From NCBI RefSeq assembly GCF_012516395.1, contig NZ_CP051206.1, positions 1,718,501 to 1,782,500 of the forward strand: DNA of 64,000 nt, read 5' to 3'. A program made the translations under genes and the position numbers. Source of the stretch: Dolichospermum flos-aquae CCAP 1403/13F (GTDB taxonomy: Bacteria; Cyanobacteriota; Cyanobacteriia; Cyanobacteriales; Nostocaceae). The notes under the pieces were generated by a model. It worked only from the letters and a program-made list of their open reading frames with translations, made no database searches and was not told where the DNA came from. This document shows positions 3,984-18,911 of this stretch, one piece after another. The first letter of the stretch is position 1; the number at the start of each line of letters is the position of its first letter.

Positions 3984-5390
3984 ATGAAAGGCAGAAAAAT
4001 TCAAATCATCAACGAAAATCAATATTTAACAAAAACTCATACAGAGTTAAATAGTGTTCAGATATCTACTCTTACAAATAAAACAATGTCAAATCATAAG
4101 AGTTCTCTAATATCTCCTTTGCATTCAATGGAAGCTGTTCTGCTTTCTGAACCTAGTGATACTTTATATCGTAAACTAACTACTTTGTCTGTAATCACCG
4201 AGTTTTTTCCAGACTATGCTGCAACCGGACAGTTGATTGAAGAACTAGTGAAACAGCTTGAGAAACAAGGAATCATAATTAGAGTATTCACTGGACAACC
4301 AGGGTACGCTTTTACTACGGCTAAAGCCCCAGCCTTAGAGCAATTAGGCAACATTCGCGTCCAAAGATCCCGATCTACTCAGCTTTGGTCTAAGAGGATT
4401 CGGGGGAAGGCTGTGAATGGTGTTTTGTTTACATTGCGGACTTTTCTCCATATTATCAAGAATGCTCGCAAAAATGATGTATTTCTATTAACTTCAGCAC
4501 CTCCTTTTTTATCAATAGCCGGATATTTCGCTCATTTGTTATTAAAATTTCCCTATATATGCTTAATTTATGATCTATATCCGGATATTGCGATCGCTTT
4601 AGGCGTAGTTTCCAAAAAGCACTGGTTAGCTAAGTTTTGGTGGGCAGTCAACCGCCAGATTTGGCAAAAATCTAAAGGGATTATTGTTCTGAGTCCTGCT
4701 ATGAAGGAGAGGGTAATAGCAATCTGTCCAGAGGTAGCTGATAAGGTGTCTGTGATTCACAGTTGGGGCGATTCTGAGTTAATTGTCCCCATTGCCAAAG
4801 AAAAAAACTGGTTTGCCAAACAACATAATTTGGACACCAAATTTACAATTCTTTATTCTGGTAATATGGGTCGGTGTCATGATACGGATACAATTTTGGC
4901 AACTGCTCAAAAATTACAAGATGAACCGATTCAATTCGTTTGTATTGGTGGTGGACCCAAACGTGAAAGCTTTATTCAAGATGTGACTCGTTTAGGATTA
5001 AAAAACTTTCTCTTTCTCCCCTATCAAGACAAAAGTGTGCTACCCTATTCCTTGACAGCTTGCGATTTATCCTTAGTCAGTGTAGAAGCAGGTTTAGAAA
5101 GTTTAGTTGCTCCTAGCAAACTCTATCCAGCTTTAGCTGCGGGAAGACCCATAGCAGCTATTTGTCCAAAAGATTCCTACTTGCGACAGCTAATAGCAGA
5201 TGGTGAGTTTGGTATTAGCATTGACAATGGAGACAGTGATAGTCTATCTAAGTTTATTCTCAACTTAAAGAGCGATCGCCAACTTGCAGAAAAAATGGGT
5301 AATGCCTCCCGCGAATATTTGCAGTCAAACTTTACGCCAGAAATCATCGCTAAACAATACATCAATGTGTTAGAACAAGCTATAATTTGA
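3984..5390 (+). CDS. Glycosyltransferase family 4 (WcaI-like)
   Basis: This is a retaining GT-B glycosyltransferase. The N-terminal domain holds TTLSVITEFFPDYAATGQLI (residues about 65-84), the hallmark of WcaI/WbuB-like enzymes. The C-terminal Rossmann domain holds TILYSGNMGRCHDTD and LVSVEAGLESLVAPSKLYPALAAGRP, where the donor nucleotide is usually bound. The 468-residue frame has a 40-60 residue non-conserved N-terminus; in-frame ATGs at 4086 and 4128 are alternative starts. It is the first gene of the sugar locus and faces the same way as the gmd gene. Donor and acceptor sugars cannot be read from sequence. Confidence 0.88.
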   Translation: MKGRKIQIINENQYLTKTHTELNSVQISTLTNKTMSNHKSSLISPLHSMEAVLLSEPSDTLYRKLTTLSVITEFFPDYAATGQLIEELVKQLEKQGIIIRVFTGQPGYAFTTAKAPALEQLGNIRVQRSRSTQLWSKRIRGKAVNGVLFTLRTFLHIIKNARKNDVFLLTSAPPFLSIAGYFAHLLLKFPYICLIYDLYPDIAIALGVVSKKHWLAKFWWAVNRQIWQKSKGIIVLSPAMKERVIAICPEVADKVSVIHSWGDSELIVPIAKEKNWFAKQHNLDTKFTILYSGNMGRCHDTDTILATAQKLQDEPIQFVCIGGGPKRESFIQDVTRLGLKNFLFLPYQDKSVLPYSLTACDLSLVSVEAGLESLVAPSKLYPALAAGRPIAAICPKDSYLRQLIADGEFGISIDNGDSDSLSKFILNLKSDRQLAEKMGNASREYLQSNFTPEIIAKQYINVLEQAII

Positions 5391-5580
5391 AATGTCACTC
5401 CAGCGTTATCAACGTCAGTGTGTGAACAAATTCAGTAAATTTAAGACAACTCAGTTAACAAAATTTAATACCTCAGACGATGTTGAATCAGGAGTTGGGC
5501 TTTGATGGTCTTTTTGATCTCAGTCCCTCCCATGCAACCTTCTTACGATCTATTGTTTAGTTAGTGATCAGGAGGCCAAA

Positions 5581-6006
5581 GTGCAGAAAAGGTGTGAGCG
5601 AAATCGGAAACGTTCCCAACGCAGGGCTATCCATTGTCCCATACATAGCTGCTATATAGATAGTGTTAGCCAAAAACACGGACTATTTGCCGAACAAGCC
5701 GGACAACTACAAGAGCGGGGTATTCCTCGTCGAGAAGCGATGATTTTAGTCGCCAATAAAACTACAGTTTCTTTAACTGGTGAGTGGTTAGAGGCTTTTT
5801 GGTGCGAAGAGTGCCAAGAAACAAAATGGTATCATGTGCATAAGCATGGATCTAAGTATGAGATATCTCTTGCCCCAGCCGAACTTTGGCAACAAGCAAC
5901 AGGTGTAATTCATCCCCATCGTAATCCTTCTGTGGGAGAATTTACCTATAGGCAATCTCGGATGCTTGGAGGTAACAGTGTTAAAGACTTCTGGGTAATG
6001 AATTGA
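5581..6006 (+). CDS. Hypothetical Cys/His-rich protein (possible zinc binder)
   Basis: The gene begins with GTG preceded by a strong ribosome site (ggagg, 5571-5575). The 141-residue product opens with a very basic stretch (MQKRCERNRKRSQRRAIHC). It then has CPIHSCYIDSVSQKH and WCEECQETKWYHVHKH, suggesting a Cys/His metal site, and a C-terminal GEFTYRQSRMLGG. No named family is recognised. Its stop is 1 bp before the gmd start, so the two are probably co-transcribed. The leader (tgatcaggaggccaaagtgc) recurs in degenerate form at 11471, in front of the ABC permease. A regulatory or nucleic-acid-binding role is possible but not shown. Confidence 0.7.
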   Translation: MQKRCERNRKRSQRRAIHCPIHSCYIDSVSQKHGLFAEQAGQLQERGIPRREAMILVANKTTVSLTGEWLEAFWCEECQETKWYHVHKHGSKYEISLAPAELWQQATGVIHPHRNPSVGEFTYRQSRMLGGNSVKDFWVMN

Positions 6007-6007
6007 C

Positions 6008-6964
6008 ATGAAAAAAGCTCTCATTTGTGGAGTATCTGGACAAGACGGCGCATATTTAGCAGAATTACTGCTAAAACAAGGCTATACAGTCTGTGGAACT
6101 TCCAGAGATGCCCAAATCTCCCCTTTCCAGAATTTAGTCCACTTAGGAATTAAAGACCAAGTAAAGCTGGAGTCAATGTCCTTGACTGACTTCCGTAGCG
6201 TCTTACAGGTACTGACAAAAATCCAACCAGATGAAGTCTATAATTTGGCCGGACAAACTTCCGTCGGTTTATCTTTTGGACAACCTGTAGAAACATTAGA
6301 AAGTATAGCTACAGGCACACTAAATTTATTAGAAGCCATTCGGTTTTTAGGCGCGACCATTAAACTTTATAATGCAGGTTCGAGTGAATGTTTTGGTGAT
6401 ACTGGCAATGTAGCAGCAGCAGAAAATACTCCATTCCGTCCCAGAAGTCCTTATGCTGTGGCTAAAGCTGCGGCTTTTTGGGAAGTAGCTAACTACCGAG
6501 AAGCTTACGGATTATTTGCCTGTTCTGGCATTTTATTTAATCATGAATCTCCCCTGCGTCCAGAAAGATTTGTCACTCAAAAAATTATTGCTACTGCCTG
6601 TCGGATTGCCCAAGGTAGTAAGGAAAAATTATATTTAGGTAATATGTCAATTCAGCGGGACTGGGGTTGGGCGCAGGAATATGTGGAAGCCATGTATTTA
6701 ATGTTGCAACAATCACAGCCAGATGATTATGTAATTGCAACGGGAGAAAGCACTTCCCTGGAAGATTTTGTCGCGGCAGCATTTCTATCTTTAAACTTAG
6801 ATTGGCATGATCATGTAGTAGTTGATAGTAGCCTGTTCAGACCTACAGATTTGGCTGTGGGTAGAGGTAATCCGAGTAAGGCTAAGAACCAGTTAGGATG
6901 GGAAGCTAGATATAAAATGCAGGATGTGGTGAAAATGATGGTAGACGCGAGATTAGAATCATGA
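6008..6964 (+). CDS. gmd: GDP-mannose 4,6-dehydratase
   Basis: This extended short-chain dehydrogenase would convert GDP-mannose to GDP-4-keto-6-deoxymannose, the precursor of GDP-fucose, GDP-rhamnose and related sugars. The NADP-binding motif GVSGQDGAYLAELLLKQGY (residues 8-26) is the GMD form. Next come PDEVYNLAGQTSVGLSF, AGSSECFGDTG, the catalytic YAVAK (about 150) and NHESPLRPERFVTQKI, all GMD-specific. Length is 318, close to short bacterial GMDs. It starts 1 bp after the upstream Cys/His gene. No GDP-fucose synthase or reductase follows in the window, so the final sugar is not determined. Confidence 0.93.
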   Translation: MKKALICGVSGQDGAYLAELLLKQGYTVCGTSRDAQISPFQNLVHLGIKDQVKLESMSLTDFRSVLQVLTKIQPDEVYNLAGQTSVGLSFGQPVETLESIATGTLNLLEAIRFLGATIKLYNAGSSECFGDTGNVAAAENTPFRPRSPYAVAKAAAFWEVANYREAYGLFACSGILFNHESPLRPERFVTQKIIATACRIAQGSKEKLYLGNMSIQRDWGWAQEYVEAMYLMLQQSQPDDYVIATGESTSLEDFVAAAFLSLNLDWHDHVVVDSSLFRPTDLAVGRGNPSKAKNQLGWEARYKMQDVVKMMVDARLES

Positions 6965-7010
6965 AAAAAATCTGATCCAGTCGGGAACTTTTGCTAAAAT
7001 AGTTAGGTGA
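6962..7010 (+). promoter_or_regulatory. Recurrent leader segment with ECF-like GGGAACTT motif
   Basis: Starting at the gmd stop, aaaaaaatctgatccagtcg is followed by GGGAACTTTTGC (6983-6994). The same string in variant form lies at 11490-11536 in front of the ABC permease (GGAACTTTG, then TCTAA). GGAACTT is the -35 word of RpoE-type ECF sigma promoters. The promoter role is inference; the shared segment is directly visible. Confidence 0.3.
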
Positions 7011-11540: not shown

Positions 11541-11589
11541 GTCAGTAATTAGGCGATTAAAGAAATAAATATAATTGGAAGATTTTAAG

Positions 11590-12453
11590 GTGAAGAAACC
11601 AAGTGCATTGTCTAATAAAGTTATTTACACCCCCGAAAGCCGGATTCGTCACCCAAAGCAACTATTACAGGAGATGGTAAGGGATTTACTGGCTTCTAGG
11701 GAATTAGCATGGCGGTTATTAGTGCGAGATATTAGCGCCCAATATCGTCAGTCTTTGTTGGGTGTGTTGTGGGCGTTTTTCCCACCAATTATCACAGCCT
11801 TGGGGCTGGTAGTTGCCAAAAATGCTGGGGCTGTAAATATTGGTATGACGGATATTCCCTATCCGGCTTATGTGATGTTTAGTATGTCACTATGGCAGAC
11901 CTTTGTGGAGGCTTTGAATGGTCCTTTGGCGGCTGTGGGTGGGGCTAGGTCAATGCTGGCAAAAATTAACTTCCCCAAGGAAGCGATTATTTTGGCTAAA
12001 TTAGGCGAAGTGTTTTTTAATTTTGGTATTAAGTTAATTTTTATTGTCGGGTTATTCCTGTGGTTTAAGATTCCCGTTACCTGGAGTGTGTTGCTAGCGC
12101 CTGTAGCTTTGATTCATTTGATCATCTTAGGAACAGCAATTGGCTTACTTCTTGCCCCTTTGGGGACTTTGTATGGGGATGTGGGCAGGGTGATACCGTT
12201 AATTGTTACGCCTTGGATGTTGTTAACTCCTGTGATTTTTCCCGTTCCTAAGCAAGGGTGGTTTAGTGTGGTAGTGAGTTGGAATCCCGTTACACCATTG
12301 TTGGTTACAGCCAGGGATTTGGCGATAAGTGGAGTGGTATCCAATCCCACTGGATTTTGGCTAGTGAGTGGTTTGAGTTTTGTGTTGTTATTTGTGGCTT
12401 GGATTTTGTATCGGTTGTCAATGCCGTTTATTGTTGAAAGAATGAGTTCTTAG
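11590..12453 (+). CDS. wzm: ABC-2 type polysaccharide export permease (Wzm-like)
   Basis: This is the membrane half of an O-antigen/capsule ABC exporter. The product has an N-terminal cytoplasmic stretch (LVRDISAQYRQSLLGVLWAF, the typical permease opening) and about six hydrophobic spans, including LIFIVGLFLWFKIPVTWSVL and SGLSFVLLFVAWILYRLS. It also has the late TPVIFPVP loop and WNPVTPLLVTARDL motif of TagG/Wzm. The GTG at 11590 follows GGAAG by 8 bases and is preferred; a TTG at 11575 is in frame. It pairs with the Wzt ATPase 27 bp downstream. It would move lipid-linked polysaccharide across the inner membrane. Confidence 0.92.
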   Translation: MKKPSALSNKVIYTPESRIRHPKQLLQEMVRDLLASRELAWRLLVRDISAQYRQSLLGVLWAFFPPIITALGLVVAKNAGAVNIGMTDIPYPAYVMFSMSLWQTFVEALNGPLAAVGGARSMLAKINFPKEAIILAKLGEVFFNFGIKLIFIVGLFLWFKIPVTWSVLLAPVALIHLIILGTAIGLLLAPLGTLYGDVGRVIPLIVTPWMLLTPVIFPVPKQGWFSVVVSWNPVTPLLVTARDLAISGVVSNPTGFWLVSGLSFVLLFVAWILYRLSMPFIVERMSS

Positions 12454-12480: not shown

Positions 12481-13704
12481 ATGTTAAACACAGAAGAGCA
12501 GAATTTACACCATCACACAAATGACGGGGAAGTTTTAGTCAGGGTTGAAAATGTATCAAAGAAGTTTTGCCGTAGTCTCAAGAAGTCTCTGTGGTATGGG
12601 GTGCAGGATATTGGCTCAGAGATGATGGGAATCAAGTATGACCATGAACTTAGACCCGATGAGTTTTGGTCAGTGAAAGATGTAAGTTTTGAGTTACGTC
12701 GTGGGGAGTGTTTGGGGTTAGTTGGTCGTAATGGTGCAGGAAAGAGTACGCTTTTGAGAATGTTGAATGGCTTGATTAAGCCGGATCGCGGTTTCATTGA
12801 AATGCAGGGGCGAGTGGGGGCGTTGATTGCCCTAGGAACAGGGTTTAACCCAATTTTGACTGGTCGGGAAAACATTTATGTCAATGGCTCTGTTTTGGGA
12901 CTTAGCAAAACAGAGATTGATGGAAAAATTGAAGAAATTATTGAATTTGCTGGGATTGAAGGTTTTATTGATTCGCCAGTACAAGGCTATAGTTCAGGTA
13001 TGCAGGTACGATTGGGTTTTGCTGTGGCGACGGCTCTTTCCCCCGATGTGCTAATTTTAGATGAGGTATTAGCGGTTGGTGATGCGGCATTCCGCAATAA
13101 GTGTTACCGAAGAATTGCCAATGTACGTAAAAATGCGGCGGTTATTTTTGTTTCACATAGCATGGAGCAAGTAGCGCGAATTTGTGACAAGGTACTAGTG
13201 ATGTCTTTAGGGGAAGTTGCTTTTTCAGGAAGCTTAGAACAAGGAATAGCGGTTTATGATCGGCTCAATGATGATGGGGAAGAGCAGGATGAGTCTTTTC
13301 TATCAGTAAGTGATCCGTTGACTTATTTTCAAGCTCAACTATCCCATGATGTTTTGTCTTCTGGCTCTCCTCTAAATATTCAATTTTCTATTGAAAGTTC
13401 TGATTTCTTAGAAGATTTTGTCTTGCGTATAATTTTTTATGATGTTTCTGGGGCTTTTGCCGCTGATTGTAACTTTTTTGCGCGTGACCATAAAATTCCA
13501 CCTCTATCTGGAATTTCCCATTGGGATGTTTCTCTTAGCTCTATCCCCTTAAAAAATGGAGTTTATCGGATTAGTTTCAATATCATTGATAGGCAGGGTG
13601 CGCTTGTCGTTTGGTCTTATAAACAGCAAAAAATAAAAATAGTGGATGCCTATCCTGGGGCAAATGCTAATTGCCAATTACAATTAGGACATTGGCTGAC
13701 CTAA
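12481..13704 (+). CDS. wzt: Polysaccharide ABC transporter ATP-binding protein (Wzt-like, with C-terminal substrate domain)
   Basis: The ATPase domain spans residues about 18-255: Walker [18 protein letters not shown], signature YSSGMQVRLGFAVATA, Walker B VLILDEVLAVGDAAF, and the switch His in FVSHSMEQV. After about 280 comes a Wzt_C-type beta domain (YFQAQLSHDVLSSGSPLNIQ, through VWSYKQQKIKIVDAYPGANA), which in E. coli O9a Wzt recognises the glycan terminus. The 407-residue length fits. It follows the permease by 27 bp and precedes the aldolase-like gene by 45 bp, so exporter and sugar-acid genes may be one operon. Confidence 0.94.
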   Translation: MLNTEEQNLHHHTNDGEVLVRVENVSKKFCRSLKKSLWYGVQDIGSEMMGIKYDHELRPDEFWSVKDVSFELRRGECLGLVGRNGAGKSTLLRMLNGLIKPDRGFIEMQGRVGALIALGTGFNPILTGRENIYVNGSVLGLSKTEIDGKIEEIIEFAGIEGFIDSPVQGYSSGMQVRLGFAVATALSPDVLILDEVLAVGDAAFRNKCYRRIANVRKNAAVIFVSHSMEQVARICDKVLVMSLGEVAFSGSLEQGIAVYDRLNDDGEEQDESFLSVSDPLTYFQAQLSHDVLSSGSPLNIQFSIESSDFLEDFVLRIIFYDVSGAFAADCNFFARDHKIPPLSGISHWDVSLSSIPLKNGVYRISFNIIDRQGALVVWSYKQQKIKIVDAYPGANANCQLQLGHWLT

Positions 13705-13749: not shown

Positions 13750-15360
13750 ATGATTAAGTTACTAGATTGTACTCTGCGAGATGGCGGATATTACAATGCT
13801 TGGGATTTTGATCAAGCTTTAATCGAAGACTATCTTCTGGCGATGAACGCAATATCTGTTGACTTTGTGGAGTTGGGTTTTCGAGGATTTGCCCAAGATG
13901 GTTTTCGGGGCGGATGCGCTTACACCACTGATAGTTTCATTCGGGGATTGTCTATCCCTGATGGACTAAAAATCGGGGTGATGGTGAATGCCAGTGAGAT
14001 TGTTAATCATCCAGATGGTGTGGAGCAAGCACTAGCCAAATTGTTTGCTCCTGCGGTTGATTCTCCTGTACTGTTGGTACGAATACCTTGCCATTTTTAT
14101 GAATTTGAAGCGACTTTAGTGGGTTGTCGCTGGCTCAAGGAGCAAGGTTATCAAGTTGGCATTAATCTCATGCAGATTGCCGATCGCTCTTTAGAGGAAA
14201 TAGAGCAGTTAGCCCATCTGGCCAGCCGATACCCTCTGGATGTACTGTATTTCGCCGATAGTATGGGCAGTATGAATCCTGGGCAAACTACAGAAATTAT
14301 TAGAGCTTTGCGTCAAGGCTGGCATAGAGAATTAGGTATTCATACTCACGATAACATGGGGCGGGCATTAGCCAATTCGCTTCAGGCGGTGGCAGATGGC
14401 GTTACCTGGATTGATGGCACGGTGACGGGTATGGGGCGAGGAGCAGGAAATGTGAAGACGGAGTATCTCGCGGTGGAGTTGGAAACCCTGCGGTCAGATC
14501 GCCCCTGCAATATTACGCCTTTGATGACGGCCATTCGCCGATATTTTGGTCCGATGCAACATTACTATGGTTGGGGAACTAATACTTATTACTATTTGGC
14601 TGGTAAGTATGGCATCCACCCAACGTATATTCAATCCATGCTGACGGATAGTCGTTATGGCGAGGAAGATTTATTAGCTGTTATTGATCACCTAAAAAAT
14701 TCTGGTGGCAAGAAGTTTAGCTTGAATACGCTGGAATCTGCACGACACTTTTATGTCGGTGAGCCAATGGGAAGTTGGTCACCAGCCAGTTTAATTGCTG
14801 GGCGTGAAGTTCTGATTTTGGGTACTGGACCTGGTGTTAAAAAGCATCAACGCGCATTAGCAGATTACATCCATCGTTATCAACCGATTGTCATTGCCCT
14901 CAATACTCAAACCCATCTAGAGCCGAAGTTGATTGATCTGCGAGTGGCTTGTCATCCAGTACGGTTATTGGCAGACTGTGCAGAGCATATCAGATTACCT
15001 CAGCCCTTGGTAACGCCAGTTTCAATGTTACCTGAAGATATTCTTGCTGAATTGGCAGGCAAGAAGCTACTGGATTTTGGTTTAGCGGTACAGCCTGACA
15101 CGTTTGAGTTTGCGGAGAATTATTGTGTGTTGCCGACATCAATGGTAATTGCTTATGCTTTGGCGATAGCTACCAGTGGTAAAGCTTCACAGATTCTCCT
15201 GGCTGGCTTTGATGGTTATAGTGCTGATGATCCTCGTAATCATGAAATGGATGTGTTACTTGGGCGTTACGTACGAGTATCTAAATCGGTACCTATTACA
15301 GCTGTAACGCCTAGTCGATATCAGATATCCCAAGGTTCTATTTACTCATTGATTGTCTAA
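13750..15360 (+). CDS. DRE-TIM aldolase-like domain fused to a DUF115/MAF-like C-terminal domain
   Basis: Residues 1-275 are an HMGL-type TIM barrel like 4-hydroxy-2-oxovalerate aldolase. Visible are LLDCTLRDGGYYNAWDF with the D-T-L-R-D-G metal/catalytic motif, the metal-binding LGIHTHDNMGRA and the GTVTGMGRGAGN loop. Such enzymes add or remove pyruvate on an aldehyde. Residues about 340-536 are a second domain with VLILGTGPGVKKHQRALADY, resembling the nucleotide-binding region of DUF115/MAF proteins, and LLAGFDGYSADDPRNHEM. Its neighbours are a CMP-sugar synthetase and a HAD phosphatase, which suggests that the product is a 2-keto-3-deoxy sugar acid. Substrate is inferred, not shown. Confidence 0.8.
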   Translation: MIKLLDCTLRDGGYYNAWDFDQALIEDYLLAMNAISVDFVELGFRGFAQDGFRGGCAYTTDSFIRGLSIPDGLKIGVMVNASEIVNHPDGVEQALAKLFAPAVDSPVLLVRIPCHFYEFEATLVGCRWLKEQGYQVGINLMQIADRSLEEIEQLAHLASRYPLDVLYFADSMGSMNPGQTTEIIRALRQGWHRELGIHTHDNMGRALANSLQAVADGVTWIDGTVTGMGRGAGNVKTEYLAVELETLRSDRPCNITPLMTAIRRYFGPMQHYYGWGTNTYYYLAGKYGIHPTYIQSMLTDSRYGEEDLLAVIDHLKNSGGKKFSLNTLESARHFYVGEPMGSWSPASLIAGREVLILGTGPGVKKHQRALADYIHRYQPIVIALNTQTHLEPKLIDLRVACHPVRLLADCAEHIRLPQPLVTPVSMLPEDILAELAGKKLLDFGLAVQPDTFEFAENYCVLPTSMVIAYALAIATSGKASQILLAGFDGYSADDPRNHEMDVLLGRYVRVSKSVPITAVTPSRYQISQGSIYSLIV

Positions 15361-15370
15361 TCATCATCTA

Positions 15371-16069
15371 ATGAAACAAGATATAAGTTTTTTTCTTCCT
15401 GTTAGAAAAGGGTCTCAAAGAGTTGAAAATAAAAATACTCGCCCATTTTCAAATGTTAGCGGCGGTTTACTTGAAATTAAGTTAAAACAACTTTTAGAAT
15501 GTGATTTTTGTAAAGAAATTGTTCTATCAACAAATGATGAAAAATCAATAGAAATCGCAAATACATTAAACTATTTAAATAAAATACGCATAGAGCGTAG
15601 ACCAGAGCATTTATGTCAGTCAAATACTTTAGTTCAAGACTTAATTAGATACGTACCGAAAGTGATGCAAACCGAGCATATATTTTGGGTTCATGCAACT
15701 TCACCCTTTGTAGATGCTAATGACTACTTTCAGGCAGTATCCCAATATTATGATGCATTAGATTGTGACTATGATTCACTCATGAGTGTTACAAAACACC
15801 ACTTTTTTATGTGGGATGCTCTAGAGAAGAAAATAGCGAATACTGATGATACTAAAGGACTATGGCCAAACACTCAAGATCTTGATCCCATATATGAGAT
15901 TAACAATGCTTTTTTTATTTCTAGTAAGAAAAATTATCAGAAGTTTCAAAATCGAATAGGTATAAATCCCAAGCTTTATGAGTTGGAAAAAATCAAGAAT
16001 ATCGATATTGATTGGGAAGATGATTTTCTGATAGCTGAAATCTTATACAGTCAGTCGTACTCAATTTAA
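15371..16069 (+). CDS. Acylneuraminate/ulosonate cytidylyltransferase family protein (NeuA-like)
   Basis: The product opens MKQDISFFLPVRKGSQRVEN, the CTP-binding motif of CMP-sugar synthetases (R-x-G-S-x-R...N-x-N/K). Later signatures are DFCKEIVLSTNDEKSIEIAN, HIFWVHATSPFVDANDY and NNAFFISSKK, and it ends at IDIDWEDDFLIAEIL, the typical D-x-D closing region. This family activates sialic, legionaminic, pseudaminic, Kdn or Kdo acids as CMP derivatives. The ATG at 15371 is preferred over a TTG at 15353 that would overlap the aldolase gene; the spacing is 10 bp. No NeuB- or KdsA-type synthase is in the window. Confidence 0.85.
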   Translation: MKQDISFFLPVRKGSQRVENKNTRPFSNVSGGLLEIKLKQLLECDFCKEIVLSTNDEKSIEIANTLNYLNKIRIERRPEHLCQSNTLVQDLIRYVPKVMQTEHIFWVHATSPFVDANDYFQAVSQYYDALDCDYDSLMSVTKHHFFMWDALEKKIANTDDTKGLWPNTQDLDPIYEINNAFFISSKKNYQKFQNRIGINPKLYELEKIKNIDIDWEDDFLIAEILYSQSYSI

Positions 16070-16256
16070 ATAGGATTTAGTGTAATCTCAAGGGTACCTC
16101 GTAAAATAGAGATGCTTATTGAGAAAAGCCTGATATGCCGTGGTTGATTTTCGCAATTAGGCAATTGATCGAGGTTTCCTAATGTTTTTTCATTTGTTGA
16201 TAGACATTTTTATTCTTGCCTCGAAGTTCTATAATTAATATAATTATCGTAAGGAT

Positions 16257-16922
16257 ATGCCAATACAGCCTATAGAGTTTTACTCGTGTTTCGTTTTTGA
16301 CTGTGATGGTGTTATCCTTGACTCCAATCAGGTCAAAACCCAAGCTTTTTATCGGGCTGCACTCCCTTATGGGGAAACTGTAGCTCAGTCCCTAGTTGAT
16401 TATCATATTCAAAATGGGGGCATTTCTCGCTATCGAAAATTTGAATATTTTCTACAAAATATTATTGGTGTTGGCATTGACCAAAAACCTCTTAACGAAC
16501 TTCTGTCAACCTATGGGGCTCACGTTCGAGAAGGTTTACTAAACTGTACAATTGCTCCAGGGATTCAGGAGTTACGTCAAGCATTGCCTGACACTTGTTG
16601 GCTTGTAGCATCTGGCGGAGATCAAGCTGAATTACATGATGTTTTTGAAAAACGAGGTATCAGTCACTTATTCAACGGTGGGATTTTCGGTAGCCCTGAC
16701 ACCAAAGAACAAATTTTGCTAAGGGAGAAAGAGCTAGGTAATATCCAATTTCCTGCTCTATTTCTGGGCGATAGCCGCTATGACTATATTGCTGCCACTA
16801 AAGCTGAACTTGACTTCATTTTTATTTCTGGCTGGACTGAAATGAAAGACTGGCAAGAGTTTTGCAAGACGCTTAAATTGCAACAGATGGATTCCATCTC
16901 CGCTCTGGTTTTTGATCTGTAA
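16257..16922 (+). CDS. HAD superfamily phosphatase
   Basis: The start ATG follows AAGG by 3 bases. Motif I is FVFDCDGVILDSNQVKTQAF with the Asp nucleophile, motif II is VASGGDQAEL, a Lys is in GSPDTKEQIL, and motif III-like FLGDSRYDYIAATKAEL completes the fold. At 221 residues with a helical cap after motif I it is a C1-cap, beta-phosphoglucomutase/phosphonatase-like HAD. It lies 187 bp after the cytidylyltransferase and before a DUF115 gene. Dephosphorylation of a sugar-acid phosphate, as in Kdo or Kdn synthesis, is the plausible role; the substrate is unknown. Confidence 0.85.
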   Translation: MPIQPIEFYSCFVFDCDGVILDSNQVKTQAFYRAALPYGETVAQSLVDYHIQNGGISRYRKFEYFLQNIIGVGIDQKPLNELLSTYGAHVREGLLNCTIAPGIQELRQALPDTCWLVASGGDQAELHDVFEKRGISHLFNGGIFGSPDTKEQILLREKELGNIQFPALFLGDSRYDYIAATKAELDFIFISGWTEMKDWQEFCKTLKLQQMDSISALVFDL

Positions 16923-17019
16923 AGCTCCTTATTTAAGAAAGTCGAAAGACTCTATTAACCTATTCTTTAAACCAAGGAATAGAGAATCAAAGATTCACTA
17001 GTCAACTCAATCTTTAAAA

Positions 17020-17859
17020 ATGCTGAATCAAATCAAACAAAAGACTAAGTCTGCTATATTAAGCCTACCCAATCTAAAAAGATGGATTAAGAGTATAGCC
17101 GATCAAGAAAGATTTGAAGGAAAAATTGAAGGAAAAATTGAAGAAGATGAAACTTACTTCAGACATATAAGAAATAAGTTTAAAGGTCAACGAGGATTTG
17201 TGATTGGAAATGGCCCAAGCTTAAAACTGGAAGATTTAGAAAAACTAAATTCAGAAATAACTATAGCTTCAAATAAAATCTTTTTGGCTTTTGATCAAGT
17301 AACTTGGCGTCCTAGCTACTACACAACTGCAGATCTCTTGGAATGGGAAAAAGTAAAATATCTTCTTCATCACCATTTTGATGTTGTGCACATCCCTAAT
17401 TACTTAAGCCCTGCAGGATCGCAGTGCCCGACTCGATGGTTCAAACATTTGGGACTGGCAGGGGAAGATAATGCAGAAGCGAATGAACGAAGCCACATTC
17501 ATTTCTCTGCGGATCTTAGCCTAGGTGCTTTTGGAGGGTGTACGGTCACCATGGAGAATTTGCAGCTCGCAGTTCACCTCGGCTTAGATCCTATTTATAT
17601 TATTGGCTGTGATCACTATTACAAAGGTGAAAAAGGATCTAGAGATATCCCTATTAATGCAAGTCAAGAAAAAAACCACTTTATTAAGAACTACAGAGAA
17701 CCAGGAGAAGTTACTAACCCAGCTATGACAGAAATTATGACTAAGGCTTATTATGAAGCATATAAATTCTCCATAGCTAACTCAATCAATATTTTTAATG
17801 CTACCAGAGGCGGCTTTCTGGAAATTTTCCCGAGAGTTGACTTCGACTCCTTATTTTAA
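17020..17859 (+). CDS. DUF115 / MAF-like protein
   Basis: The 279-residue product has a lysine-rich N-terminus with a doubled GKIEGKIE stretch. Then comes RGFVIGNGPSLKLEDLEKLN, the DUF115 signature, SNKIFLAFDQVTWRPSYYTTADL, and IYIIGCDHYYKGEK. DUF115 proteins include archaeal MptE and bacterial motility-associated factors linked to flagellin glycosylation with nonulosonic acids. They often sit beside CMP-sugar genes, as here. Its Rossmann-like motif is similar in kind to the C-terminal domain of the aldolase fusion at 13750. A transferase role for a CMP-sugar is possible but unproven. It precedes a GT2 gene by 5 bp. Confidence 0.82.
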   Translation: MLNQIKQKTKSAILSLPNLKRWIKSIADQERFEGKIEGKIEEDETYFRHIRNKFKGQRGFVIGNGPSLKLEDLEKLNSEITIASNKIFLAFDQVTWRPSYYTTADLLEWEKVKYLLHHHFDVVHIPNYLSPAGSQCPTRWFKHLGLAGEDNAEANERSHIHFSADLSLGAFGGCTVTMENLQLAVHLGLDPIYIIGCDHYYKGEKGSRDIPINASQEKNHFIKNYREPGEVTNPAMTEIMTKAYYEAYKFSIANSINIFNATRGGFLEIFPRVDFDSLF

Positions 17860-17864
17860 AAGAA

Positions 17865-18911
17865 ATGATGCCATCTAAAAATCACACGCCCAAAGTTTCT
17901 ATTCTTTTACCTAATTTAAATACCAGCAAATATTTACCAGCGAGATTTGAATCAATTCAAGCCCAAACCTTCACTGATTGGGAAACGATTGTTGTTGATA
18001 GTTACTCAAGCGATGGAGCCTGGGAGCTAATTCAGCAATATGCTCAAAATGATCCACGAATACTCATCTCCCAAGCTCCTAGAGAAGGAATTTATGCTGG
18101 ACTAAATCGGTGCATAAATCTTGCAAAAGGGGAATATATTTATATAGCGACCAGCGATGACACAATGATGCCTAATTTTCTTGAGGAAATGGTTGCCGCA
18201 CTAGACACTTATACCCAATGCAGTTTAGCCCATTGCTGTTTAACGTTTATTGATGAATTTGGAAAGCCGATTAAGCCTAATCCATGGGATGAATATTATT
18301 CATCTCTATATTATGGAGAAATGTTGAAAAAATTTCATATTCGCCAAGCCCCTTTGGATGGTATCTTACATTGTTTTCTGTTGACTGCTTATACATCTTT
18401 AACACAGTTATTAATAAGAAGATCTCTCTTTGAAAAAGTTGGGAACTTTTCAACACGCTATGGTTCGATGGCTGACTTTGGATGGGGAATGAAAGCCTCA
18501 TTAGTTTGTGATACCATTCATATCCCTAAGTATTTAGCCACATGGAGAAGACATCCAGAACAGGCAACTTTAGATGCTGATTCAATGAGTCCTAGTTACT
18601 ACTATTCTTTGATTGAGATGATTCATGAAGCAGTCTCCTTAGGGATAAGTGCTAACCCTGGAATCGAAAGATACTTTTCTAGGATGAATGAGATGAGCTA
18701 TGTATATAATCACCTAGCTTTTGATCTTCAAATTAGAGGTGCGAAAAATAGGCTAGAAAAAATCCCTCTAATACTTAAAATAATTCCTGCTCAATTAGAT
18801 ATTTTTTTAGATAGATATGTTCTCAGAAAAGCGCTACCAGATCGCTTGAAATATGCACGAAAGATAATTGCGAAATTTAATTTATCGAGAAGACTTATTC
18901 AGCTATCTTAA
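17865..18911 (+). CDS. Glycosyltransferase family 2
   Basis: This is an inverting GT-A enzyme. The nucleotide-binding N-terminus KVSILLPNLNTSKYLPARFE is followed by TFTDWETIVVDSYSSDGAWE and the metal-site region YIYIATSDDTMMPNFLEEM. The acceptor-side region is ADFGWGMKASLVCDT. It has 348 residues and a basic C-terminus without a clear membrane span. The start is placed 5 bp after the DUF115 stop (ATG ATG, so either may be used), suggesting translational coupling. The donor sugar is unknown. Confidence 0.9.
   Translation: MMPSKNHTPKVSILLPNLNTSKYLPARFESIQAQTFTDWETIVVDSYSSDGAWELIQQYAQNDPRILISQAPREGIYAGLNRCINLAKGEYIYIATSDDTMMPNFLEEMVAALDTYTQCSLAHCCLTFIDEFGKPIKPNPWDEYYSSLYYGEMLKKFHIRQAPLDGILHCFLLTAYTSLTQLLIRRSLFEKVGNFSTRYGSMADFGWGMKASLVCDTIHIPKYLATWRRHPEQATLDADSMSPSYYYSLIEMIHEAVSLGISANPGIERYFSRMNEMSYVYNHLAFDLQIRGAKNRLEKIPLILKIIPAQLDIFLDRYVLRKALPDRLKYARKIIAKFNLSRRLIQLS

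Follow-up and report, generated by a model that had tools for sequence, protein, structure and literature searches.

How is a sugar acid supplied to a surface polysaccharide locus that encodes an enzyme to activate the acid but none of the usual enzymes to make it? Known routes to cytidine monophosphate (CMP)-activated sialic-acid-like sugars and 3-deoxy-manno-octulosonate (Kdo) begin with a phosphoenolpyruvate (PEP)-dependent synthase, and annotation of such loci commonly relies on that gene. The question is raised by a 64,000-nucleotide stretch of the cyanobacterium Dolichospermum flos-aquae CCAP 1403/13F (contig NZ_CP051206.1, positions 1,718,501 to 1,782,500; the whole stretch is referred to here as the window), in which a fusion protein with an aldolase-like N-terminal half precedes a CMP-sugar synthetase and a HAD phosphatase. 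The reading we favour, with moderate confidence, is that this locus encodes a PEP-independent route by which a CMP-activated 2-keto-3-deoxy (ulosonic) sugar acid is made. In this pathway the aldolase half would add pyruvate to an aldose, probably phosphorylated, to give the 2-keto-3-deoxy acid; the HAD enzyme would remove the phosphate; the synthetase, judging from its family, would activate the acid with cytidine triphosphate; and the second domain of the fusion, a separate DUF115 protein, or both, may transfer it to the glycan exported by Wzm/Wzt. Donor, acceptor and product are all inferred.

The original prediction, made from the sequence alone, had described these genes as lying directly after a Wzm/Wzt exporter. 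All of its features are present where it had placed them, on the + strand, with Pfam matches over cut-off; the motifs LLDCTLRDGGY, HTHDN, GMGRGAGN, GTGPG and RKGSQRVENKN occur in the translations. The locus reads as follows.

11575..12453, + strand: Wzm-type ABC-2 permease of a polysaccharide exporter (Pfam ABC2_membrane, 44 bits)
12481..13704, + strand: Wzt-type ATPase with a C-terminal extension (ABC_tran, 86.5 bits)
13750..15360, + strand: fusion protein of 536 amino acids, DRE-TIM aldolase (about residues 1-320) plus Maf/GT42-like domain (about 348-536)
14791..15357, + strand: C-terminal domain of the fusion, modelled on its own (predicted local distance difference test score, pLDDT, 96.8)
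15353..16069, + strand: NeuA/PseF-like CMP-sugar synthetase (CTP_transf_3, PF02348, 41.8 bits; cut-off 22.6)
16257..16922, + strand: HAD phosphatase, beta-phosphoglucomutase/phosphoglycolate phosphatase-like (Hydrolase, 36.4 bits; cut-off 26.4; HAD_2 also over cut-off)
17020..17859, + strand: stand-alone DUF115/MptE-like protein (PF01973 MptE-like, 42.8 bits; cut-off 34.6)
17865..18911, + strand: GT2 glycosyltransferase, downstream (Glycos_transf_2, 87.7 bits)

The absence of NeuB and KdsA from the window, on which the original prediction had been built, extends to the whole genome (two contigs, 99.96% complete). A search with the NeuB model (PF03102) gave one match, of 31.2 bits, and one with the DAHP-family model (PF00793) gave two; together they returned only two open reading frames, of 346 and 360 amino acids, which by sequence we read as DAHP synthases. 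With the KdsA model TIGR01362 (cut-off 314 bits) the score was 122 bits, for the 346-amino-acid frame. A NeuB or KdsA elsewhere in the genome, a possibility that would have undercut the proposal, was therefore rejected, as these searches gave DAHP-synthase-like frames only. PF02348 matched only the window synthetase and a 454-amino-acid GlmU-like protein, and the former is the genome's only CMP-sugar synthetase. With the HpcH-family model PF03328 nothing exceeded the cut-off, the one sub-threshold match being to a pyruvate-kinase-like protein. We also checked 21 hand-picked genomes carrying the module, among which the metagenome-assembled genomes (MAGs) may be incomplete. KdsA was over cut-off in 13, while NeuB was strong (at least 174 bits) in seven, weak (31-38 bits) in five and not detected in nine. 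Neither KdsA over cut-off nor strong NeuB was found in five: G000, G153, Rossellomorea aquimaris (G291, locus L054) and two MAGs (G303, L131; G304, L116).

The aldolase half scored 97.2 bits against PF00682 (HMGL-like; DRE-TIM superfamily), with a curated cut-off of 29. By both profile and fold, the characterised families nearest to it are 4-hydroxy-2-oxovalerate aldolases, which use pyruvate. R10, D11, H198 and H200 are kept in all 80 aligned fusions, and we take such Arg-Asp and His-x-His pairs to be the metal/substrate residues of DRE-TIM enzymes. The C-terminal domain was predicted with high confidence to adopt the fold shared by Maf and the GT42 sialyltransferases, which use CMP-ulosonic acids. 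Maf ranked first in structure comparison by VIA-align, at an identity of 17% or less; by sequence profile CstII ranked first, with a whole-chain E of 0.002 although the best single stretch reached only 0.047. Against the MptE-like model PF01973 the fused GTGPG domain scored 16.9 bits, below the cut-off of 34.6, and this domain appears to be distantly related to the separate DUF115 protein. Because of the modelled Maf/GT42-like fold of its second domain, the fusion may make as well as transfer the sugar acid. One Maf is reported to accept both N-acetylneuraminic acid and Kdo (PMC11339370).

Linkage of the fusion to the synthetase was followed across other genomes. The fusion matched 67 of 291 genomes of the phylum at E 1e-20, mostly via its aldolase half. 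Our sample comprised 99 loci: the window, 18 hand-chosen stretches from those 67 genomes (best matches plus some single-domain ones), and the best 80 of at least 564 relatives from a contig scan, picked by similarity to the fusion family. Genes were called with a simple open-reading-frame finder, and families were defined by hidden Markov models built from our own clusters, three of which are combined in the HAD count. A locus was counted as fused if its open frame reached 480 amino acids, which 88 of the 99 loci did. This split may have put a few loci in the wrong group: the match of L102 and L100 ends at residue ~330, L067 and L101 look like broken-frame fusions, and L122 has a short frame. 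A CMP-sugar synthetase lay within 5.5 kb in 76 of the 88 fused loci, on the same strand in 75 and no more than 300 bp away in 54. A HAD gene lay within 5.5 kb in 62, both genes in 57, and a separate DUF115 protein in 13. As an internal control, synthetases per covered 2-kb bin, counted outward from the aldolase, numbered 69/173, 12/162, 11/150, 5/144 and 6/140. Among the 11 loci without a fused frame, one had a synthetase within 2.5 kb and is itself a broken-frame fusion (L067); the other ten, of which seven are plainly single-domain aldolases (~290-350 amino acids), had none within 7 kb of available sequence. NeuB occurred within 9 kb in 13 of the 88 fused loci, and in 12 of these 13 there are two or more synthetases, which would allow one for each synthase; L107, one of the 12, nevertheless has two NeuB genes for its two synthetases.

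Relatives of the fused aldolase were found in cyanobacteria, SAR11, marine gammaproteobacteria, Bacteroidota, Bacillota and others. Eight plasmid records matched the fusion, three of them, all Leisingera, over most of the query. One Leisingera plasmid that we inspected carried the aldolase, a 3-deoxy-manno-octulosonate cytidylyltransferase and a HAD gene in order, and two of the five partial plasmid matches, also inspected, showed no synthetase. Phage records gave a single partial match, at 39% coverage. We conclude that the aldolase-synthetase module is widespread and mobile, a cassette found in several phyla rather than a peculiarity of one locus.

The synthetase itself has been swapped repeatedly beside the aldolase. 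For the 80 fusions the nearest synthetase was KdsB-like in 41 and NeuA-like in 31, with none within 4.5 kb in eight; mapping the KdsB label onto the aldolase tree takes 18 changes, at least 13 of them forced by well-supported branches, although the bootstrap was not fully settled. On that tree the window aldolase clusters with sequences from Bacillus, Rossellomorea, Methylobacillus and a Microthrix MAG, an arrangement that favours transfer between phyla. A same-genus relative, L034, shows the exchange at close range. Its DNA is 97% identical to the window over Wzt, most of the aldolase and most of the HAD gene, and 93% over Wzm, and its Wzt and downstream glycosyltransferase proteins are 96% and 99% identical; for the aldolase an identity of 95.5% was recorded. 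The window NeuA, however, is only 30% identical to its counterpart, an extra HpcH gene lies between aldolase and synthetase in L034, and the DUF115 genes of the two loci gave no mutual match at E 1e-5. In this pair the core that stays constant consists of the aldolase and the HAD gene, while the activator and the candidate transferases vary.

The neighbours bear on what the acceptor might be. Within six genes, at the 96 loci with a called aldolase, the core families numbered 41 (HAD), 41 (KdsB-like) and 35 (NeuA-like), and the commonest additional clusters were epimerase/dehydratase-type (27), GT2 (19), ABC (17), DegT (15) and HpcH (14); no constant precursor enzyme was found among them. A gene set that moves between phyla without constant precursor enzymes probably uses a common metabolite as acceptor, for example glyceraldehyde-3-phosphate, erythrose-4-phosphate or a pentose-5-phosphate. 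A bolder form of the proposal is that one polypeptide combines an acid-making pyruvate aldolase with a transferring Maf/GT42-like domain, in a three-gene cassette that works on common metabolites and yields a short ulosonic acid, for instance one of six or seven carbons, as in CMP-2-keto-3-deoxygluconate. We put this forward only tentatively and think it, as a whole, rather doubtful. To our knowledge, short ulosonic acids of this kind are not known as CMP-sugars.

Several observations weigh against the proposed pathway. The aldolase half scored 99.4 bits against the 4-hydroxy-2-oxovalerate aldolase model TIGR03217, far under the curated 286. In DmpG and BphI the catalytic His follows RDG-x, and DmpG reads LRDGSH at the position where the fusion has Tyr14; that position is Tyr in 76 of the 80 fusions and His in four, and the chemistry may therefore differ from that of known pyruvate aldolases. 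Loss of active-site residues, which the original prediction had named as damaging, is accordingly partial, the Arg, the Asp and both His being untouched. In the C-terminal domain no His position is invariant or 90% conserved across 80 sequences, whereas GT42 enzymes use a catalytic His base. Within 5.5 kb, 26 of the 88 fused loci lack a HAD gene of the three pooled clusters, and 12 lack a CMP-sugar synthetase; some of the latter are cut by contig ends, those of the L037/L040/L041/L117 type are not. A PfkB gene occupies the usual place of HAD in L107, L125 and L130 (KDG-kinase-like in L107, the one scanned), and an HpcH/GarL-type aldolase lies within 5.5 kb in 14 of the 88. The idea that the fusion takes the place of NeuB/KdsA therefore survives in part: the relationship to 4-hydroxy-2-oxovalerate aldolases, the genome searches and the synthetase linkage speak for it, and the replaced His against it.

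An aldolase that simply made Kdo, joining pyruvate to arabinose-5-phosphate to give Kdo-8-phosphate for HAD and KdsB-like steps, would be an alternative KdsA. The 41 fusions with a KdsB-like nearest synthetase are in keeping with this, and two scanned synthetases (L069 and L035) pass two NCBIfam subfamily models named 3-deoxy-manno-octulosonate cytidylyltransferase. Yet both fall below the kdsB equivalog TIGR00466 (145.9 and 141.9 bits against 155.2), the window synthetase is NeuA-like, 13 of the 21 module genomes have KdsA as noted above, and L091 has, next to the module, KdsA together with another KdsB. A second, more distant KdsB was present in 15 of 16 hand-picked genomes searched with a module KdsB. 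In a tree of 30 KdsBs (two of 32 matches, lacking a locus, were left out), 17 close, module-type sequences split from 13 distant ones at 97/95 support, the labels being assigned by similarity rank rather than checked by position; the place of the KdsA-linked KdsB from the L091 genome is unsure, because it is among three distant rows with long branches. The simplest reading is a dedicated product other than Kdo. On the TIGR00466 scores, the presence of KdsA, the L091 pair and the KdsB tree we rejected Kdo as the product, and consider this explanation quite improbable.

It is slightly easier, though still unlikely, to imagine that the N-terminal enzyme is of Claisen type, or another DRE-TIM enzyme with a different donor (acetyl-CoA or a keto acid, for example), and modifies a sugar acid that is produced elsewhere. 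Isopropylmalate, homocitrate and citramalate synthases belong to the superfamily, and Tyr stands in place of the aldolase His; the nearest characterised relatives are nevertheless the 4-hydroxy-2-oxovalerate aldolases, and no NeuB, KdsA or HpcH-type enzyme was found in the window genome to make the acid. The HpcH/GarL-type aldolase of some modules could instead be the true ulosonate synthase, the DRE-TIM enzyme doing something else, and its position between aldolase and synthetase in L034 is suggestive. However, 74 of the 88 fused loci have no HpcH nearby, and the weak match in the window genome reads as pyruvate kinase. HpcH was rejected as a universal synthase, and we regard this reading as very improbable. 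A more serious contender, which we rate not far below an even chance, concerns the second domain: it may be a regulatory domain that binds a nucleotide or CMP-sugar, with separate DUF115 or GT2 proteins carrying out transfer. The first ranks of CstII by sequence profile and Maf by VIA-align argue for a transferase, as do the 75 of 88 fused loci in which our families identified no separate DUF115 protein within 5.5 kb.

Around the PEP-independent pathway that we favour, several variant modules were seen. In seven loci (L115, L120, L128, L081, L056, L079 and L082) the fused aldolase is accompanied by an LdpA-like iron-sulfur protein, HAD, KdsB and a large surface-carbohydrate protein that is weakly TIGR04326-like; HpcH is present in six and was not found in L082. 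L037, L040, L041 and L117 have the fused aldolase, an LdpA-like protein, HAD, HpcH and an acetolactate-synthase-type thiamine pyrophosphate enzyme, with no CMP-sugar synthetase nearby. The KDG-kinase-like protein and the GarL-like aldolases in subsets weakly hint at C6-type 2-keto-3-deoxy acids. In L050 (family f31, from the window's phylum) two tandem fused aldolases are surrounded by four NeuA-like genes and one KdsB-like gene. A SAR11 subgroup (L073, L075 and L099) has a B12-type radical SAM protein directly after the fused aldolase, and among these a NeuA-like gene was seen in L073 alone, a few genes further along and on the opposite strand. In L091 (Bacillus sp. ISL-41, a Gram-positive), KdsA adjoins its own KdsB at ~5000-7000, sharing the locus with the aldolase module but standing apart from it; used as a query, this KdsA matched only L091 among the 99 loci. 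A putative 4-hydroxy-2-ketovalerate aldolase has been named in a Campylobacter jejuni capsule locus (PMC9858101).

In the window itself, the TTG start of the synthetase overlaps the stop of the fusion, with an ATG at 15371; its nearest PDB entry is 9t4z, PpNeuA (E 4.7e-11), and it scored 67.4 bits against the PseF model TIGR03584, below the curated 205.7. The HAD protein had no PDB match at E 0.01 (HMMER). The stand-alone DUF115 protein, the genome's only PF01973 match, had one doubtful PDB match (2hgc, E 0.012) and is a candidate second CMP-sugar transferase. Wzm matched the NCBIfam galactan Wzm weakly (33.5 bits, under cut-off). Ahead of the full Wzm/Wzt pair, a 148-amino-acid open frame at 11018-11464 matches the N-terminal part of a Wzt-type ATPase and looks like a truncated partial duplicate. 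Promoter-like sites numbered below the shuffle mean and were uninformative.

Although CMP-ulosonic acid biosynthesis is itself known, a different first enzyme, and the unusual fusion of synthase-like and transferase-like domains, would be new. We found no description of this route, nor a report of the family acting on an unrelated substrate, in the open-licence PubMed Central literature; most subscription papers and all preprints lie outside that scope, which makes this weak evidence of absence. Passages in PMC5804319 and PMC3877843 had no bearing on the route. If the proposal is correct, many surface polysaccharides of the groups listed above may hold acidic sugars missed by annotation, and orphan KdsB and NeuA paralogues would gain a partner enzyme. 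The question is directly testable with three small proteins.

Four known systems are close to this one. The DRE-TIM fold and the Arg, Asp and two His residues are common to the fusion and the 4-hydroxy-2-oxovalerate aldolases DmpG and BphI; the fusion differs in its TIGR03217 score, in Tyr14, and in its extra domain, and no aldehyde dehydrogenase turned up in a scan of eight window genes surrounding it. A single-domain structure, PDB 3dxi, is titled as the N-terminal domain of a putative aldolase, BVU_2661 of Bacteroides vulgatus, with no function given, and no paper on the protein was found in the open-licence literature. With the Maf flagellin glycosyltransferases and the GT42 enzymes CstI and CstII, the C-terminal domain has in common the fold and the G-x-D region, but it is fused to an aldolase, has low identity and lacks a 90%-conserved His. 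Compared with the NeuB and KdsA pathways to CMP-nonulosonic acids and CMP-Kdo, the window has no PEP-dependent synthase that we could find and a DRE-TIM aldolase in its place; as we understand those pathways, they share with it a phosphatase, a CMP-sugar synthetase and CMP-sugar-using transferases, set in surface glycan loci.

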